This document shows positions 21,607 to 54,362 of a stretch of DNA of 64,000 nucleotides, one piece after another. The notes under the pieces are model-generated. The model was given only the letters and a program-made list of their open reading frames with translations, was not told where the DNA came from and searched no databases. Location: NCBI GenBank assembly GCA_030652475.1, contig JAUSAO010000114.1, positions 1 through 64,000 on the forward strand, read 5' to 3'. This DNA is from Gallionella sp. GTDB lineage: Bacteria; Pseudomonadota; Gammaproteobacteria; Burkholderiales; Gallionellaceae. Numbering within the stretch: position 1 is the stretch's first letter; every line of letters starts with the position of its first letter. The position numbers and the translations under genes were made by a program.

Positions 21607-21632
21607 CCGTTCGCCCTGAGCTTGTCGAAGGG
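21607..21632. repeat. Left copy of TTCGACAAGCTCAGG repeat (reverse orientation)
   Basis: A 26-base copy of the dispersed repeat, in the CCTGAGCTTGTCGAA orientation, ends 25 bases before the GIY-YIG gene. It matches the right copy at 21958-21982 as an inverted repeat at 24 of 25 positions. Confidence 0.85.
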
Positions 21633-21657
21633 TGAACAACAACGGAGCAAATCAATC

Positions 21658-21987
21658 ATGAGCTTCTGGGTCTACATCCTTCGTTGCTCGGACGATTCAT
21701 ATTACACGGGACACACCGACAACCTTGAACAGCGCATCGGTGAACACCAGCATGGCCTGTGCGAAGGCTATACTTCCACTCGTCTGCCTGTTGAACTGGT
21801 ATTCAGCCAAGCGTGTGCAACCAGAGAAGAAGCGTTAGCCGCCGAACAACAAATTAAAGGCTGGAGTCGCAAGAAAAAAGAGGCGATGATGCGTGGCGAT
21901 TGGACCGAGGTCTCTCGTTTGGCGAAAGGCAATCAACGTGATGGTAAGTCAGTTCATCCTTCGACAAGCTCAGGACGAACGGATTAA
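21658..21987 (+). CDS. Small GIY-YIG nuclease-superfamily protein
   Basis: The 109-residue product is a single GIY-YIG domain. VYILRC with YYTGHT near residues 5-19 stands for the GIY and YIG strands. An Arg lies in the following helix (LEQRIGEHQHG) and a Glu near position 60 (TREEALAAEQQIKGWSRKKKEAM). Such stand-alone proteins (YhbQ/UPF0213-like) have unclear roles. The last dozen residues (SVHPSTSSGRTD) are encoded by the repeat at 21958-21982, and the mirror copy lies just before the gene, so the gene is bracketed by inverted repeats. Confidence 0.85.
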   Translation: MSFWVYILRCSDDSYYTGHTDNLEQRIGEHQHGLCEGYTSTRLPVELVFSQACATREEALAAEQQIKGWSRKKKEAMMRGDWTEVSRLAKGNQRDGKSVHPSTSSGRTD

Positions 21988-22003
21988 ATCAGCATCTCCC
22001 TAG
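21958..22003. repeat. Right copy of TTCGACAAGCTCAGG repeat joined to a MITE end
   Basis: CCTTCGACAAGCTCAGGACG and the following GAACGG at 21958-21982 overlap the end of the GIY-YIG gene. Immediately after, 21982-22003 (GATTAAATCAGC then TCTCCCTAG) resembles one terminal repeat of the 18744-18860 element, so two repeat families abut here. Confidence 0.75.
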
Positions 22004-23056: not shown

Positions 23057-25189
23057 TTGACCGCACCCGCAAAAATCTCTCCCGCCGCCCTTGCTCGTCT
23101 GAGCAAACTGGGAATACATCATCGCAGCGAACTGCTGTTGCATCTGCCGTTGCGCTATGAGGACGAAACGCATCTCGCGCCGATAACCACGGTGCAGCCC
23201 GGCGAGACGGTGCAGGTTCAGGGCACCATTACGCACGCAGAAATCACCTTCCGGCCGCGACGCACGCTGGTCTGCCGCCTGCAGGACGCCGGTGGCGAAC
23301 TGTATTTGCGCTTTTTGAATTTTTACCCCAGCCAGCAAAAACAGCTCGCGGTAGACAGCCAGATACGCGCCATAGGCGAGATTCGCATGGGCTATTACGG
23401 GCTGGAAATGGTGCATCCGAAATGCCGCGCCGTAGATATCGATACGCCGTTGCAAACCAGCCTGACCCCGGTTTATCCGACCACAGCGGGGCTGTCTCAA
23501 GTCGCGCTGCGCAAGCTGATCGCCAACGCGCTGGAGGTGTTACCGATACCCGAGCATTTGCCGAAATCCGTGTTCGACCGTTTGAAACTGGCCGACTTTG
23601 CGGAAAGTCTGCGCCTGCTGCATAGCCCTACCGCGGATATTTCCGCACACAGCCTGGCAAATCGCAGCCATCCGGCATGGCAACGCATCAAATTCGACGA
23701 ATTGCTGGCGCAGCAACTGTCGATGCGCGTGCACCACAGGGAACGCAGCCAGCGCACCGCCCCCGCGCTGCCGCCGAGAAAACACCACACAGACGCGCTG
23801 TTGAAAAATCTGCCGTTTGCATTAACGAAGGCGCAGCGAAAGGTCTGCGGCGAAATCGGCGGCGATCTGGCAAAGCCACATCCTATGCAACGCCTGTTAC
23901 TGGGCGATGTCGGCAGCGGCAAGACCGTCGTCGCAGCGCTCGCCGCCTTACAGGCGATAGAAAACGGCTATCAGGTCGCACTAATGGCGCCCACCGAAAT
24001 ACTGGCCGAACAGCATTTTCTAAAACTTTCCGAGTGGCTCGCCCCGCTGGGCATTACCCCTGTCTGGCTGTCCGGCAGCCTGAAAAAAAAGGACAAGAAA
24101 CTGGCCGCAGAAAAGATCGCATCGGGCGAAACGCTGCTCGCCATCGGCACGCACGCGCTGTTTCAGGAGCAGATCAGCTTCCACAAACTGGGACTGGCCA
24201 TCGTCGACGAGCAGCACAAATTCGGCGTTCAGCAGCGTCTGGCGCTGCATGCCAAAGGCAAACACTCCACAGCCGTTCGTGGTGAGCCTGTCGAACCACA
24301 AGCGCCGCCTTCCCATCCCCTTCGACAAGCTCAGGGCGAACGGCCTGAGGAGCAAGCCAAAATACAAGAACCACACCAGCTGATGATGAGCGCAACACCG
24401 ATTCCGCGCACGCTGGCGATGAGTTATTACGCCGATCTGGACGTGTCGGTGATCGATGAATTGCCGCCCGGCAGGACGCCGGTGATCACAAAACTGGTCA
24501 GCGATACGCGCCGCGACGAGGTATTCGAACGGGTGCGCGCCGGATGCATCGGCGGACAGCAGGCCTACTGGGTCTGTCCGCTGATCGACGAATCCGAAGT
24601 GCTGCAATTGCAGAACGCGCTGGAAACACATCAGTTACTGACCGACACCTTCCCTGAACTGCGCATCGGTCTGGTACACGGCAAGATGGACAGCGCCGAG
24701 AAAGTCCGCGTGATGACGGCGTTCAAGGCCGGTGAGCTGCAACTGCTGGTCGCGACCACGGTGATCGAAGTCGGCGTGGATGTGCCGAACGCCAGCCTGA
24801 TGGTGATAGACCACGCCGAGCGCATGGGACTGGCACAGTTGCATCAGTTGCGCGGACGGGTGGGACGCGGTTCGGCGCAAAGCCTGTGCATCCTGCTGTA
24901 TCAAAAACCGCTCTCTGAACTGGCCCGAACGCGATTAAAAGTGATCTTCGAAAACACGGATGGCTTCGCAATCGCTCAGGAAGACTTACAATTGCGCGGG
25001 CCGGGTGAATTACTCGGCGCACGGCAGAGCGGCGTGGCGATGTTACGCTTCGCCGATATCGATGCAGACGAAGATTTACTGGAACAGGCGCGCGGCGTCG
25101 CCGACGAATTGCTGCACGACTACCCGGAGGCAGCACGCGCGTACTTACAGCGCTGGATGGCAAAAAAACATGACTATTTGCACGTATAA
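23057..25189 (+). CDS. recG: ATP-dependent DNA helicase RecG
   Basis: RecG remodels stalled replication forks and branched DNA. The 710-residue protein has an N-terminal wedge/OB domain (about 40-160), Walker A GDVGSGKT, motif II DEQH and motif III SATPIPRT. The helicase C-terminal lobe follows, with ATTVIEVGVDVPNASLMVI and QLRGRVGRG. About 30 residues between motifs II and III (402-434) are encoded by an inverted pair of dispersed repeats, an in-frame insertion in a surface loop. TTG at 23057 is the apparent start. The last 20 bases overlap ubiC. Confidence 0.95.
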   Translation: MTAPAKISPAALARLSKLGIHHRSELLLHLPLRYEDETHLAPITTVQPGETVQVQGTITHAEITFRPRRTLVCRLQDAGGELYLRFLNFYPSQQKQLAVDSQIRAIGEIRMGYYGLEMVHPKCRAVDIDTPLQTSLTPVYPTTAGLSQVALRKLIANALEVLPIPEHLPKSVFDRLKLADFAESLRLLHSPTADISAHSLANRSHPAWQRIKFDELLAQQLSMRVHHRERSQRTAPALPPRKHHTDALLKNLPFALTKAQRKVCGEIGGDLAKPHPMQRLLLGDVGSGKTVVAALAALQAIENGYQVALMAPTEILAEQHFLKLSEWLAPLGITPVWLSGSLKKKDKKLAAEKIASGETLLAIGTHALFQEQISFHKLGLAIVDEQHKFGVQQRLALHAKGKHSTAVRGEPVEPQAPPSHPLRQAQGERPEEQAKIQEPHQLMMSATPIPRTLAMSYYADLDVSVIDELPPGRTPVITKLVSDTRRDEVFERVRAGCIGGQQAYWVCPLIDESEVLQLQNALETHQLLTDTFPELRIGLVHGKMDSAEKVRVMTAFKAGELQLLVATTVIEVGVDVPNASLMVIDHAERMGLAQLHQLRGRVGRGSAQSLCILLYQKPLSELARTRLKVIFENTDGFAIAQEDLQLRGPGELLGARQSGVAMLRFADIDADEDLLEQARGVADELLHDYPEAARAYLQRWMAKKHDYLHV
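24273..24343. repeat. Inverted pair of TTCGACAAGCTCAGG repeats inside recG
   Basis: A reverse copy at 24273-24297 and a forward copy at 24319-24343 face each other across 21 bases within the recG reading frame, keeping it open. The forward copy is the better preserved one. Confidence 0.85.
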
Positions 25190-31635: not shown

Positions 31636-32568
31636 TTACACCCAGTCTTTGGGTTGCAAAAATTTGTCGTATAACACCGCTTCCGGCGTGCCTGCCTCCG
31701 GATGCCAGTCGTAGCGCCATTTCACCAGCGGCGGCATGGACAGCAGGATGGATTCGGTACGACCATTGGATTGCAGGCCGAAAATGGTACCCCGGTCTAT
31801 CACCAGATTGAATTCCACGTAGCGTCCGCGACGATAGAGCTGAAAATCGCGCTCACGCTCTCCATAAGGCATGTCCATGCGCTTTTCCAGGATAGGCACA
31901 TAGGCCGACAGGAAGTGATCGCCTACGCTTTGCTGTATCGCAAATGCAGTTTCAAAATCAGGCACGGAAAGATCATCGAAGAAGATACCGCCGATGCCGC
32001 GCGGTTCCTGACGATGCTTAAGGAAGAAGTATTCATCGCACCATTTCTTGTATTTTGCATGCAGATCGTCGCCGAACGGCGTGAGCGAATTCTTGCAGGC
32101 CTGATGGAAATGCACCGCATCTTCCTCGAATCCATAATACGGTGTCAGGTCCATGCCACCGCCAAACCAGAACACTTTTTCGCCATCCGGCTTATGCGCC
32201 ATGAACATGCGCACGTTTGCATGAGTAGTCGGCGCATACGGATTGCGCGGATGCATCACCAGCGACACGCCCATCGCCTCCCAACTGCATCCCGCCAACT
32301 CGGGACGATGTGCGGTCGCCGAAGCGGGCATTTTGTCGCCCTGCACATGCGAGAACGCCACGCCGCCGCGCTCAAACACGTTGCCTTCTTCCAGGATGCA
32401 ACTGATGCCCTCGCCTTTAGTGATGCTGGAAGCCTGTCCTGAGCCTGTCGAAGGACGCTGCCACTTGTCGCGAATGAATTTCTTGCCATCCACCTGTTCC
32501 AGACGCTCGACGATCAGTTCTTGCAGTTCCAACAGATATTCTTTAACGGCTGCGCTATTTACGCTCAT
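31636..32568 (-). CDS. hemF: Oxygen-dependent coproporphyrinogen III oxidase
   Basis: HemF performs the aerobic oxidative decarboxylation to protoporphyrinogen IX in heme synthesis. The 310-residue protein has the conserved [51 protein letters not shown] and [28 protein letters not shown] segments. Residues 39-48 ([10 protein letters not shown]) after DKWQ are encoded by a dispersed repeat (32431-32454), an in-frame insertion in a loop absent from E. coli HemF. Confidence 0.96.
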
Positions 32569-37534: not shown

Positions 37535-38743
37535 ATGAAAACCTCGATGCAATACGACGTTGTGATTATTGGTGGCGGTCTGGTAGGTGCCAGTCTGGCC
37601 GCTGCGCTGAAAGACAGCGGGCTGTCGCTGGCGCTGGTGGAAGCCGGCCCTGCGCCCGCACTGAATGACCCCGCGCTTGCTGACGACTGGGACAGCCGCA
37701 TTTATGCGATCAGCCCCGGCAGCCGCCGTTTTCTCGAACAATCCGGCGCTTGGGCAAAGCTTGACCCAACACGCATTGCGCCTGTGGAAGAAATGCGCGT
37801 GTTCGGCGACACCGGCCCTTCGACCAAGCTCAGGACAGGCTCGAAACTCGAATTTTCCGCCTATCAGATGGGCGTGTCAGAACTGGCCTGCATACTGGAA
37901 AATCGTGCGCTGCAACACGCGCTGTGGCGTGTCCTGCGGGATCAGGACAACCTGACATTTTTCCATCCGGCACGCTGCAAGGCACTCTCGATAGCTGAAG
38001 CGTCCGCCGAACTCACGCTGGAAGGCGGGCAGACGCTGAGCGCAAGACTGATCGTCGGCGCCGACGGGCGCAACTCCTGGGTACGCAATCAGGCGGGCAT
38101 TTCTGCCGCGCCGGTGGATTACCAGCAACACGGCGTGGTTGCCAATTTCAACTGCGCGCTGCCACATCGCGGCATCGCCCACCAATGGTTCCAGGAGGAC
38201 GGCATTCTTGCCCTGCTGCCGCTGCCCGGCCTGCGCGTTTCCATGGTGTGGTCGGTCAGCCCTGAAAAATCTGCTGCGTTGCTGGCAATGTCGCCCGAAG
38301 AACTCTGCTCACAAGTCGCTGCCGCATCACAAAACACACTGGTCAATTTGCAGCTCATCACGCCGCCTGCCGCGTTTCCGCTGCGCTTGCTCACGCTGCC
38401 ACAAATCAGCGCACCGCGCGTGGCCTTGATAGGCGATGCCGCGCACAACATGCACCCGCTGGCCGGGCAAGGCGTGAACACCGGATTCCGCGATGCGCGC
38501 CAACTGGCGGAATTACTGACGAATCGCGGCGGATGCAGCGATTGCGGCGATGCGCAACTGCTGCGCCGATATGACCGGAAACGCAAGGAAGATATTTACA
38601 CCATGCAGGCCACCACCTATGGATTGAAGAAGCTGTTCTGCAACGACGATCCGCTGTTGCGCACCCTGCGCAATCTCGGCATGGACACCACGAACCACAT
38701 CGTTCCACTGAAAAAACTACTCATGCAACACGCCCTCAACTAA
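37535..38743 (+). CDS. UbiH/UbiF/VisC-type ubiquinone biosynthesis hydroxylase
   Basis: The 402-residue flavin monooxygenase has an N-terminal FAD motif IIGGGLVGASLAAALKDSG near 10-28. The internal VGADGRNSWVRNQAG lies near 171-185 and ALIGDAAHNMHPLAGQGVNTGFRDAR near 293-318. This family hydroxylates the ubiquinone ring; the exact position is uncertain. Residues about 94-103 (GPSTKLRTGS) come from a dispersed repeat at 37816-37843 inserted before LEFSAY, where relatives have a short turn. Confidence 0.9.
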   Translation: MKTSMQYDVVIIGGGLVGASLAAALKDSGLSLALVEAGPAPALNDPALADDWDSRIYAISPGSRRFLEQSGAWAKLDPTRIAPVEEMRVFGDTGPSTKLRTGSKLEFSAYQMGVSELACILENRALQHALWRVLRDQDNLTFFHPARCKALSIAEASAELTLEGGQTLSARLIVGADGRNSWVRNQAGISAAPVDYQQHGVVANFNCALPHRGIAHQWFQEDGILALLPLPGLRVSMVWSVSPEKSAALLAMSPEELCSQVAAASQNTLVNLQLITPPAAFPLRLLTLPQISAPRVALIGDAAHNMHPLAGQGVNTGFRDARQLAELLTNRGGCSDCGDAQLLRRYDRKRKEDIYTMQATTYGLKKLFCNDDPLLRTLRNLGMDTTNHIVPLKKLLMQHALN

Positions 38744-44213: not shown

Positions 44214-46058
44214 ATGCCCACACTCAACTGGATCGGCAAACAAGCCGTCGTCAAACATCACAAGGAAGTGCCGTTCCGCCTGCTGGAACCTGTGGCGGAA
44301 CTATCCTGCCCCTCTCCCCCAACCCCTCTCCCCGGCGGGGAGAGGGTGGCCGACAGGCCGGGAGAGGGAAATGTGACTGAGAATCTCATCGTGCAGGGCG
44401 ACAACCTCGATGCGCTGAAAGCCCTGCTGCCGCGCTATGCCGGGCAGGTGAAGTGCATCTACATCGATCCGCCCTACAACACCGGCAACGAAGGCTGGGT
44501 TTACAACGACAACGTCAACAGCGCGGAAATCAAACGCTGGCTGGGCGAAGTGGTCGGCAAGGAAGGCGAAACGCTGGACAGACACGACCGCTGGCTGTGC
44601 ATGATGTATCCGCGTTTGCTGCTGTTGAAACAGTTTTTGCGCGAGGATGGGTCAATCTGGATTTCCATAGATGACGCAGCAATTACTTTGCTTCGATGTC
44701 TAATGGATGAGATATTCGGAACGGATAAATTTGTTGCGTGCAATGTTTGGCAAAAACGCTACTCGCGTGAAAATCGAGAAGCAATTGGCGATGTTCACGA
44801 GTATGTGCTGGTATATGCAATGAGTCCTGCCAACTTTAAGAAAACACGCCATAAAATTCCAATTGATGAGAAACAGGCCAAAATTTATCGGAATCCCAAC
44901 AGCGATCCTAAGGGGCGTTGGAGATCGGTTCCAATGACTGCACAAGCAGGTCATGCCACATCTGAGCAGTTTTATGAAATTACAACTCCTTCTGGCAAAA
45001 AGTTTCGCCCCTCTCAAGGGAGGTGCTGGGGGTTGGCTCAAAAGACTTTTGAACAACTAAGATCAGAAGGTCGAATCTATTTTGGGAAAAATGGAAGTTC
45101 ACAGCCGAACGTTATTCGATACCTGTCCGAAGTTGAAGGTGTCGTTCCGTGGACATGGTGGCCGCATGACGAGGTTGGCAATACGGATGAATCCACTAAA
45201 GAATTGATGGGTATCTTTGGAGGCGAAACCCGATTTAACACCACTCCGAAGCCTAGTCGCCTAATTCAGCGCATCCTGCAAATCGCCACCGACAAGGATT
45301 CCCTGATCCTCGATTCCTTCGCAGGCAGCGGCACGACCGGTCATGCGGTGTTGAAACAGAACGCCGAGGATGGCGGAAATCGTCGCTTTATTCTGGTGGA
45401 GATGGATGAAAACATCGCGCAAAACGTCACGGCGGAACGGGTGCGGCGGGTCAGTGAGGGTTATAGCAAAGGCGCCCTCTCCCCCAACCAGCCCCCTCGC
45501 GAGCTCTCCCCCGCAAGCGTGGGAGGGGAGAAATTGGTTGAAGGACTAGGTGGCGGATTCCAGTTTTGCACCTTGTCCAAACAACCGCTGTTCACCGCCG
45601 AAGGTCAGATTCGTGACGATGTCACTTTCGCGCAACTGGCGGAATTTGTCTGGTTTATCGAAACCGGAACGGGGTTAAACCTAAGCCATTCATTCGACCG
45701 TCATTCCCGCGCAGGCGGGAATCCAGACAATCAAACCACCGCCCCGCAAGGCGGGGCACAAAATCCAACAGCCCCTTTAATAAACTCACTGGATTCCCGC
45801 CTGCGCGGGAATGACGGCTTCGGTTTGTCGCCGCTGTTAGGCATCCACCAGGGCCGCGCCATTTACCTGCTGTATAACGGCATCCTCAAGGATAAATCGG
45901 TGGCGGGCGGCAATGTGCTGAGCGGCGCGGTGTTGGATATATTGCCCGCTTACGAGGGCGCGAAGGTCATCTACGCGGCGGCCTGCCGTCTGGGTACGGC
46001 GCGACTGCACCGCGAAAACATCGTGTTCAAGCAGACACCTTATGCGTTGGCGGTGTAG
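44214..46058 (+). CDS. Type III restriction-modification DNA methyltransferase (Mod)
   Basis: The 614-residue adenine-N6 methyltransferase has DPPYNTG at 85-91 before the SAM motif FAGSGTTGHA at about 369-378, the beta-class order typical of Mod subunits. The central target-recognition part (about 145-345) is AT-richer than the flanks. Three stretches come from in-frame dispersed repeats: about residues 32-53, 418-441 and 496-535. The last contains a perfect 28-base inverted repeat. It is followed by a toxin-antitoxin pair and then the restriction subunit gene. Confidence 0.88.
   Translation: MPTLNWIGKQAVVKHHKEVPFRLLEPVAELSCPSPPTPLPGGERVADRPGEGNVTENLIVQGDNLDALKALLPRYAGQVKCIYIDPPYNTGNEGWVYNDNVNSAEIKRWLGEVVGKEGETLDRHDRWLCMMYPRLLLLKQFLREDGSIWISIDDAAITLLRCLMDEIFGTDKFVACNVWQKRYSRENREAIGDVHEYVLVYAMSPANFKKTRHKIPIDEKQAKIYRNPNSDPKGRWRSVPMTAQAGHATSEQFYEITTPSGKKFRPSQGRCWGLAQKTFEQLRSEGRIYFGKNGSSQPNVIRYLSEVEGVVPWTWWPHDEVGNTDESTKELMGIFGGETRFNTTPKPSRLIQRILQIATDKDSLILDSFAGSGTTGHAVLKQNAEDGGNRRFILVEMDENIAQNVTAERVRRVSEGYSKGALSPNQPPRELSPASVGGEKLVEGLGGGFQFCTLSKQPLFTAEGQIRDDVTFAQLAEFVWFIETGTGLNLSHSFDRHSRAGGNPDNQTTAPQGGAQNPTAPLINSLDSRLRGNDGFGLSPLLGIHQGRAIYLLYNGILKDKSVAGGNVLSGAVLDILPAYEGAKVIYAAACRLGTARLHRENIVFKQTPYALAV
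44308..44370. repeat. CCCTCTCCC/GGGAGAGGG repeat inside mod
   Basis: CCCTCTCCCCCAACCCCTCT and the following GGGGAGAGGGTGG form an inverted repeat inside the reading frame, coding for a Pro/Gly-rich insert before the first conserved methyltransferase strand. Confidence 0.7.
45699..45816. repeat. Perfect 28-bp inverted repeat element inside mod
   Basis: 45699-45726 (beginning CGTCATTCCCGCGCAGGCGG) and 45789-45816 are exact inverted copies. Between them lie 62 bases that hold another small palindrome (GCCCCGCAAGGCGGGGC). The element is related to the sub-palindromes inside the 18744-18860 element and keeps the mod frame open. Confidence 0.85.
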
Positions 46059-53057: not shown

Positions 53058-54362
53058 GTGGCAGATACTTCGACAAAGCTCAGTACAGGAATAAAACAGG
53101 TATTAGTGCCGGACATCGGCGACTACAAAGGGGTCAGCGTCATCGAGGTGATGGTCAAAGTTGGCGACACGATCAACGAAGAAGACACCCTGTTGACGCT
53201 GGAAACCGACAAGGCCGCAATGGATGTGCCCTCGCCCTATTCCGGCGTAGTCAAGGAATTGCATGTTGAAATCGGCGACAAGGTTTCACAAAATTCGCTG
53301 ATTCTGCTACTGGAGTGCGCAGAACAAATCCCCCCCAGCCCCCCTTTCACAAGGGGGGGGGCAGATAGTGTTCCCGCAGCGTCGCCTGCCCCTGCCGTAA
53401 CCCAAGTCGCTACTGCGCAAACACCCGTCGTCGCCCCCTTTGACAAAGGGGGGCTGGGGGGGATTTCAGCGCACGCCAGTCCGGCGATACGCCGTTTCGC
53501 GCGCGAGTTGGGCGTGGGCATTGCCCAGGTCAAAGGCAGCGGCGAAAAAGGCCGCGTGACAAAAGAAGATGTACAGAACTTCGTCAAGACCGCGCTGGCG
53601 CAGCCGCGTGCGGCGGCGGGCGGTAACGGTCTTCAGGTGCTGGATATGCCGGTGTTTGATTTCGCCAAATATGGCGCGATTGAAAGCAAGCCGCTGTCGC
53701 GCATCCAGAAGATTTCCGGCGCCAACCTGCACCGCAACTGGGTAACCATTCCACACGTCACGCAATTCGATGAAGCTGACATCACCGAGATGGAAGCCTT
53801 CCGCAAGCAACTGGGCGCAGAATACGCCAATCAAAACATCAAGATTACCCCGCTGGCCTTCATGCTCAAGGCGGTGGTCGCAGCCTTGCAGAAGTTTCCG
53901 AAATTCAATGCCTCGCTGGATGGCGAGAATCTGGTGCTCAAGCACTACTTCCACATCGGCGTGGCAGTTGATACGCCGGATGGCCTGATGGTTCCGGTGC
54001 TGAGGGACGTGGACAAGAAGGGCATCGTGCAACTGGCCAGCGAACTCGCCGAAATCAGTGCAAAAGCGCGCGACAAGAAAATCACGGCAAATGATATGCA
54101 GGGCGGCTGTTTCACCATTTCCAGCCTCGGCGGGATAGGTGGTACGGCATTTACACCCATAATCAACGCGCCTGAAGTCGCCATTCTGGGCGTGTCGCGT
54201 TCCTGCATGAAGCCGGTGTATCAGGATGGCGGTTTTGTGCCGCGTCTGATGCTGCCCTTATCGGTGTCCTACGACCATCGCGTCATCGACGGCGCGGCCG
54301 CAGCGCGTTTTACGGCCTATCTGGCGAAGGTGTTGTCCGATATACGCCGGTTGGCCCTGTAA
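53058..54362 (+). CDS. aceF: Pyruvate dehydrogenase E2 (dihydrolipoyl acetyltransferase)
   Basis: The 434-residue core subunit has one lipoyl domain (about 14-88, lipoyl Lys in LETDKAAMDVPSP) and a peripheral-subunit-binding domain (about 137-175, ASPAIRRFARELGVGIAQVKGSGEKGRVTKED). The catalytic domain ends with SVSYDHRVIDGAAAARF. Residues 4-11 (TSTKLSTG) and both ends of the linker (IPPSPPFTRGG and APFDKGGLGG) are encoded by dispersed repeats. GTG 53058 follows TAGGAGAG. Confidence 0.96.
   Translation: MADTSTKLSTGIKQVLVPDIGDYKGVSVIEVMVKVGDTINEEDTLLTLETDKAAMDVPSPYSGVVKELHVEIGDKVSQNSLILLLECAEQIPPSPPFTRGGADSVPAASPAPAVTQVATAQTPVVAPFDKGGLGGISAHASPAIRRFARELGVGIAQVKGSGEKGRVTKEDVQNFVKTALAQPRAAAGGNGLQVLDMPVFDFAKYGAIESKPLSRIQKISGANLHRNWVTIPHVTQFDEADITEMEAFRKQLGAEYANQNIKITPLAFMLKAVVAALQKFPKFNASLDGENLVLKHYFHIGVAVDTPDGLMVPVLRDVDKKGIVQLASELAEISAKARDKKITANDMQGGCFTISSLGGIGGTAFTPIINAPEVAILGVSRSCMKPVYQDGGFVPRLMLPLSVSYDHRVIDGAAAARFTAYLAKVLSDIRRLAL
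53326..53466. repeat. Long C/G-rich inverted repeat in the aceF linker
   Basis: 53326-53360 (AAATCCCCCCCAGCCCCCCT then TTCACAAGGGG) and 53434-53466 are near-identical inverted copies. They flank 73 bases of Ala/Pro-rich linker coding sequence and both remain in frame. Confidence 0.8.

Follow-up and report, generated by a model that had tools for sequence, protein, structure and literature searches.

A 64,000-nucleotide stretch of Gallionella sp. DNA (hereafter the window) carries a small GIY-YIG nuclease gene between two inverted copies of a hairpin repeat. We put the probability at roughly 60% that gene and repeats make up a minute mobile unit, in which the nuclease recognises its own hairpin ends and its cutting drives the spread of the copies. 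The observations behind this reading are the bracket geometry, the unit boundaries, sites empty of both gene and brackets, covariation of the stems and co-segregation of loop type with nuclease clade, which for two loop types (T2 and T3) extends to copy number. The preliminary description had seen in the layout an autonomous unit with non-autonomous copies, and this is well supported by brackets recurring across phyla, repeat-bound units, empty sites and clade-linked loops; that the nuclease itself moves the repeats is what we infer.

The nuclease gene and its hairpin brackets

The two repeat copies lie, as first described, at 21607..21632 (minus strand) and 21958..21982 (plus strand), inverted and identical at 24 of 25 positions. 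The left one has the loop TCGACAAGCTC, the stem CCCT/AGGG and the tail CGAACGG, and the right one the stem TCCT/AGGA; both tails point outward, and the single mismatch between the copies is half of a compensatory stem pair. Free-standing and between genes, the nuclease gene (21658..21987, plus strand) encodes 109 amino acids from the ATG at 21658, and with its two brackets it measures about 0.4 kb. The right copy overlaps the gene and does encode the C-terminus of the protein, as had been claimed, with the peptide HPSTSSGRTD. The protein was assigned to the GIY-YIG family by Pfam PF01541 (70.2 bits against a cut-off of 22.6; E 1.9e-19). Y6, Y15 and E63 are invariant in 24 aligned proteins and R26 is present in at least 90% of them; we take these conserved tyrosines, arginine and glutamate to be the catalytic residues. 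A fold model of residues 1-91 (mean pLDDT 91.9) shows the GIY-YIG core plus a C-terminal helix. The closest structures by profile and fold are the UPF0213 proteins 1ZG2 and 1YWL, followed by Slx1 at E 0.01 and weaker, but the UPF0213 profile match ends at position 78-79 and does not reach the C-terminal DWxEVSRLA helix.

The repeat of the window, type T1, consists of the loop TCGACARGCTC between flanks of 3-4 complementary bases, which vary in concert (CCT/AGG, GGT/ACC, GCT/AGC); strict copies end in the tail CGAACGG and other copies in ACAGGC. The orthologue loci supplied 180 distinct T1 copies, in which stem pairs -2, -3 and -4 are Watson-Crick in 173, 168 and 167 cases, against shuffled maxima of 126, 119 and 106, and the first stem pair from the loop hardly varies. 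The corresponding counts in the window's genome (25 copies) are 24, 21 and 17 against shuffled maxima of 23, 20 and 18, the third tested pair (17/25) thus not rising above its maximum of 18. The stems of the 13 T3 copies are invariant, so T3 is uninformative on covariation. Since the single hairpins of the window fold weakly (DNA folding energies at z -0.84 and -1.02), the case for a hairpin rests on covariation; a hairpin pair in recG folds well (z -3.48). Judged from the aligned copies, the repeat is a predicted hairpin with compensatory stem changes.

The pattern TTCGACAAGCTCAGG at up to 2 mismatches has 4 matches in the window (expected mean 0.09; none of 100 shuffles reached 4), and the genome holds 28 copies of TTCGACARGCTCAGG at up to 1 mismatch, with 0 for the reversed pattern; the shuffles and this control exclude a chance origin of the window repeats. 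All four genes named earlier as carrying further copies do so. In recG lies a 71-bp hairpin pair (24273..24343) with outward tails and two different stems, GGT/ACC and CCCT/AGGG, and in hemF a single copy (32430..32454, minus strand) with the tail ACAGGC. The copies in the UbiH/UbiF-family hydroxylase gene (about 37816..37840, plus strand) and at the start of aceF (about 53066..53090, plus strand) are called degenerate because each has one extra loop base. The recG pair is absent from recG of all 29 relatives read (35 of 40 genomes matched, 30 loci read), several of which carry other inserts at the loop that holds it, and the RecG loop is a permissive site in a repair gene. This loop precedes the motif MSATPIPRT (window about 24240-24380), and other inserts or longer stretches were noted there in loci L143-L149, L159 and L160. 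Mobile repeats would explain the short foreign peptides encoded inside RecG and HemF here.

Brackets, boundaries and empty sites among relatives

A scan of genome contigs gave 199 relatives, from which the best 80 were taken as orthologous loci; many of these come from metagenome assemblies, and the nearest hits mark the window as DNA of a Gallionella-like betaproteobacterium. With one mismatch allowed, a T1 loop was found near the gene (up to 400 nt upstream or up to 800 nt downstream of the gene start) in 65 of the 80 loci and on both sides in 48. A de novo inverted-repeat search, whose shuffled control scored at most 11, and inspection of the loci revealed another loop in the same frame at many of the remaining ones, namely T2 (TCGATACCTC), T3 (TCGAGAGCCTC), or T4 and T5, which have an inner hairpin. 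Flanking repeats at the gene ends of relatives, which the preliminary description had proposed to look for, were thereby found: 75 of 80 loci have beside the gene, in the 300 nt upstream or between +250 and +700, a loop that exactly fits one of six patterns (T1, T1g and T2-T5, the last four written after looking at the loci). Four of the other five have a one-mismatch T1 loop and the fifth a masked remnant. Loop density was 203 per 58.9 kb near the gene versus 21 per 197.5 kb far from it, a 32-fold difference. Strict patterns (T1-like, T2 and T3 cores) place a minus-strand copy on the left and a plus-strand copy on the right in only 53 of 80 loci, with 63 right and 60 left copies overall. Distant GIY-YIG paralogues (38-46% identity) lack any loop in 20 of 21 cases, and these paralogues are probably UPF0213-like; the lone exception, L121 in genome G114, has T1 loops with another tail.

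The query behind the 199 relatives contained the repeat-encoded protein tail. The resulting suspicion of bias was answered by a tail-free search, in which all 7 close hits (58-100% identity; one being the window itself and two already among the 80) have a typed loop nearby. At the 63 loci with a right copy, the reading frame runs through the repeat in 39, stops before it in 15 and inside it in 9. The tail of the nuclease is therefore dispensable, and a conserved function of this repeat-encoded part was ruled out.

Bracketed units recur across phyla. Relatives of the nuclease, none reaching 60% identity, were found on plasmids (3 records, E to 1e-20) and in phages (9 records, E to 1e-10). By eye, a Sphingomonas plasmid gene (L231, 56%) is bracketed by the loop TCGACTTCGCTC and a Methylobacterium plasmid gene (L233, 48%) by longer loops, and no brackets were seen around the third plasmid gene, which has an internal stop. 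Because L231 and L233 carry yet other loops in the same frame, more than five loop types probably exist. Two loci, L062 (T5) and L065 (T2), lie in another context than the nearest T1 genes, and the gene starting downstream of the nuclease there is presumably selB (MIIGTAGHIDHGK-type start). A palindrome family with the core CCAAGTCGCTGG was also noted, inside the T1 hairpin of the upstream bracket at L039, after the U32 gene at L207 and in recG at L147.

The limits of the unit were examined in 1722 locus pairs without homologous flanks, 85 pairs with homologous flanks being set aside. Where both loci have the right repeat (1110 pairs), homology passes its outer end by more than 20 nt in 7; the homologous block ends within 8 nt of the outer end in 218 and more than 20 nt short of it in 849. 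For the left repeat, homology extends more than 20 nt past the outer end in 6 of 983 pairs. Two complete T3 units (L058 and L097) lie 4.4 kb apart on one contig. The position of the gene is fixed in the 11 nearest relatives, with a U32 gene upstream in 10/11 and a DUF386 gene downstream in 10/11; beyond these the unit stands in unrelated flanks. Set against the hallmarks of a homing endonuclease (an intron, an intein or a fixed site), the place is thus fixed among the nearest relatives but not elsewhere.

Empty sites, also proposed earlier as a check, do exist: relatives were found that lack the nuclease gene and the brackets together. Within the family, the U32 gene was obtained from 29 of 40 genomes. 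It is followed by the nuclease gene in 2 of the 29, with both brackets in both, and by DUF386 without the nuclease in 18, within 27 nt in 7 of these; DUF386 was out of reach in the remaining 9. The gene-less U32/DUF386 sites showed no complete T1, T2 or T3 repeat; a tail-less T1-like loop is present at L214 and L228, and another palindrome at L207. No target-site duplication was identified.

Loop types, nuclease clades and copies without the gene

Placed on a tree built from residues 1-90 of 88 proteins, the five loop types can be accounted for by 8 changes, against a shuffled mean of 20.5 with 0 of 200 shuffles as low; the tree excludes the protein tail, has few columns and mostly open forks, and near-copies help to keep the change count low. 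For this count T1g was merged with T1, L071 was left stateless, and two genes are present twice (L114/L051 and L116/L065). Some states were set by hand: L041, L056, L093 and L099 as T1 from one-mismatch loops, L112 as T1, and L073 as T3 and L105 as T2, with two types lying near each of the last two. Candidatus Gallionella acididurans has two such genes, L034 of type T1 and L088 of type T2, and the brackets of each show the loop of its type; one T2 loop also occurs elsewhere in locus L034. The protein columns that best separate the loop types begin with three (91, 87 and 84) in the region of the C-terminal helix, the others being spread, and on the position of these three the helix is a candidate reading head for the loop. 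The correspondence of clade and loop offers a directly testable enzyme-substrate code.

T1, T2 and T3 copies were counted in 50 genomes, drawn from 50 of the loci. With the presence of T2 and T3 genes judged from the 80 loci only, the 6 genomes with a T2 gene hold 42, 55, 69, 6, 25 and 28 T2 copies, and the other 44 genomes have none (41 genomes) or 2-4 (three genomes). The 6 genomes with a T3 gene hold 35, 58, 27, 28, 12 and 17 T3 copies; among the 44 others one reaches at least 12 (G194, 26), followed by G165 with 10, G184 with 7, G163 with 6 and the rest with fewer. These T3 counts use a looser 12-base pattern, which gives 0-4 when reversed. The T1 repeat occurs in 47 of the 50 genomes, those with T2 and T3 genes included, and is not discriminating. 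Strict T1 repeats are present in 27 of 150 genomes of the order, comprising 7/7 with a close orthologue and 20/143 without; three of the 7 orthologues are T2, T4 and T5, so T1 counts there say little. The expectation that repeat abundance follows the gene thus held for T2 and T3, and for T1 it is partly contradicted by these 20 genomes. GIY-YIG genes were checked in 16 of the 20, the remaining 4 having a single repeat copy apiece, and 30 of 38 places were read; a T1-bracketed gene was seen in G114 and in none of the other 15. In genome G048 (3 contigs, completeness 100), which has 71 strict T1 copies, the one GIY-YIG match falls in a uvrC-like frame of 804 aa. Where T1 repeats stand without a matching gene, the gene may have been lost or overlooked, or the repeats may have another mover.

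Copies that lack the gene also occur as pairs. Among the listed places (17 genomes), 71 neighbouring copies lie within 100 nt of each other, 56 with tails outward, 8 with tails inward and 7 in the same direction, 5 of the last belonging to one tandem array of G184; these counts include G184, G171 and G181, and the source lists give only part of the places. The tails-outward geometry is that of the gene bracket, and in 53 of the 56 such pairs the two stems differ, against a mean of 39.2 and a maximum of 49 in shuffles.

Proposed mobility, rival explanations and known systems

In the mechanism we propose, the gene and its two brackets would be one small mobile unit, each bracket forming a hairpin with a stem of about 4 bp, variable but kept paired by compensation, and a loop such as TCGACARGCTC, and the CGAACGG tail could partly pair as an outer stem. 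The single-domain nuclease would recognise its own repeat by the loop and cut there, with the DNA most likely in single-stranded or extruded form. GIY-YIG enzymes hydrolyse DNA and are not known to join strands; host repair or replication after the cut would place copies elsewhere. Single hairpins and tails-outward pairs, REPIN-like and usually with two different stems, would be non-autonomous copies, which the nuclease probably helps to spread. Recognition, cutting and cutting-driven spread are all steps that we infer. Several findings count against the scheme: genomes with many T1 repeats in which no matching gene was seen, strict brackets on both sides in only 53 of 80 loci, the presence of T1 in nearly all counted genomes, the third stem pair and the weak single-hairpin folds in the window's own genome, the lack of an identified target-site duplication and the absence of known strand joining by GIY-YIG enzymes.

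The loop-clade match needs recognition, not mobility, and could also arise from a target system of the Ssn kind. Ssn, a GIY-YIG family, cuts repeated sequence in Neisseria, site-specifically on single-stranded DNA, and its homologues differ in target sequence, with the cognate repeat near the gene and over the genome. The nuclease here might likewise recognise and cut its cognate repeats without moving them, acting on single-stranded DNA such as arises during DNA uptake, the repeats being spread by recombination or another agent and kept as targets. The hydrolytic chemistry of the family agrees with this, and so do the repeats of genomes in which no matching gene turned up. Against it, gene and brackets are gained and lost together: homology seldom extends beyond the repeats, and sites without both exist. 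We hold such a system to be rather unlikely. Repeats without a matching gene would also suit an unrelated enzyme, such as a RAYT/Y1 transposase, for which landing beside the nuclease gene was incidental; the recG loop, which takes other inserts as well, fits too. It would leave unexplained why loop type follows nuclease clade, and a RAYT as mover was ruled out for the window's genome, where no Y1 transposase (Y1_Tnp) match exceeds the Pfam cut-off (best 21.2 bits versus 23), so that we think this very improbable. Least probable of all, with hardly any weight, are hairpins serving as regulatory parts (a terminator, or mRNA stability) of a vertically inherited gene. The place kept in the 11 nearest relatives, with its U32 and DUF386 neighbours, speaks for this, but the same hairpins lie inside coding genes, gene and brackets are missing together in relatives, the brackets are double and inverted, and the same bracketed unit occurs in unrelated contexts.

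If the mobile unit is real, it would be a further REP-type element, with a loop-reading hydrolytic nuclease plus host repair in place of a transposase. More tentatively, single-domain GIY-YIG nucleases might be the dedicated mobility enzymes of a superclass of hairpin repeats, C-terminal helix and loop co-evolving; it would comprise the TCGA...CTC loops described here and, for a second GIY-YIG branch, the CGTC REPs. A literature search found no paper that ties a GIY-YIG protein to the window repeat; many journals lay outside its coverage, and novelty is thus unproven.

Chenal et al. are said to have described the Ssn single-strand nucleases of Neisseria and their homologues in Nat Commun in 2025. 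A small GIY-YIG protein with a cognate genomic repeat is common to Ssn and to the window unit, whose repeat was met both near the gene and genome-wide. Unit anatomy, compensatory stems and pairs of different stems are results obtained here.

CGTC-tagged REPs (Di Nocera et al. 2013) are said to be without a dedicated transposase; they have a CGTC tag, a stem of 8-9 bp starting with AT pairs and a CCA tail, and occur mainly as dimers in opposite orientation (PMC3733652). The window repeat resembles them as a hairpin with a short tail found mainly in opposite-orientation dimers, but it differs in sequence and falls outside the CGTC definition. CGTC-type hairpins themselves were seen as an inverted pair in the window (about 45698-45726 and 45789-45817; CGTCATTCCCGCGCAGGCGGGAATCCA). 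At L003 (G000:C96, 1304-1870) a GIY-YIG gene with one internal stop lies between such hairpins (TGTCATTCCGGCGAAAGCCGGAATCCA), and among 30 places read, five in other genomes (L177, L178, L189, L191 and L198) have a GIY-YIG gene beside such hairpins as well. This second GIY-YIG branch may be the missing enzyme of the CGTC REPs.

A further parallel in layout is with REP/REPIN repeats and their RAYT (TnpA-REP) genes, the REPtrons. There, short hairpin repeats, often in inverted pairs, bracket a nuclease gene, and many repeat copies occur without it (PMC3733652, PMC8266576). A gene bracketed by hairpins, inverted pairs and many gene-free copies are common to both. The window unit, in contrast, has a GIY-YIG protein in place of the HUH tyrosine transposase, and its repeats have no GTAG tag at the hairpin foot but end in CGAACGG or ACAGGC.
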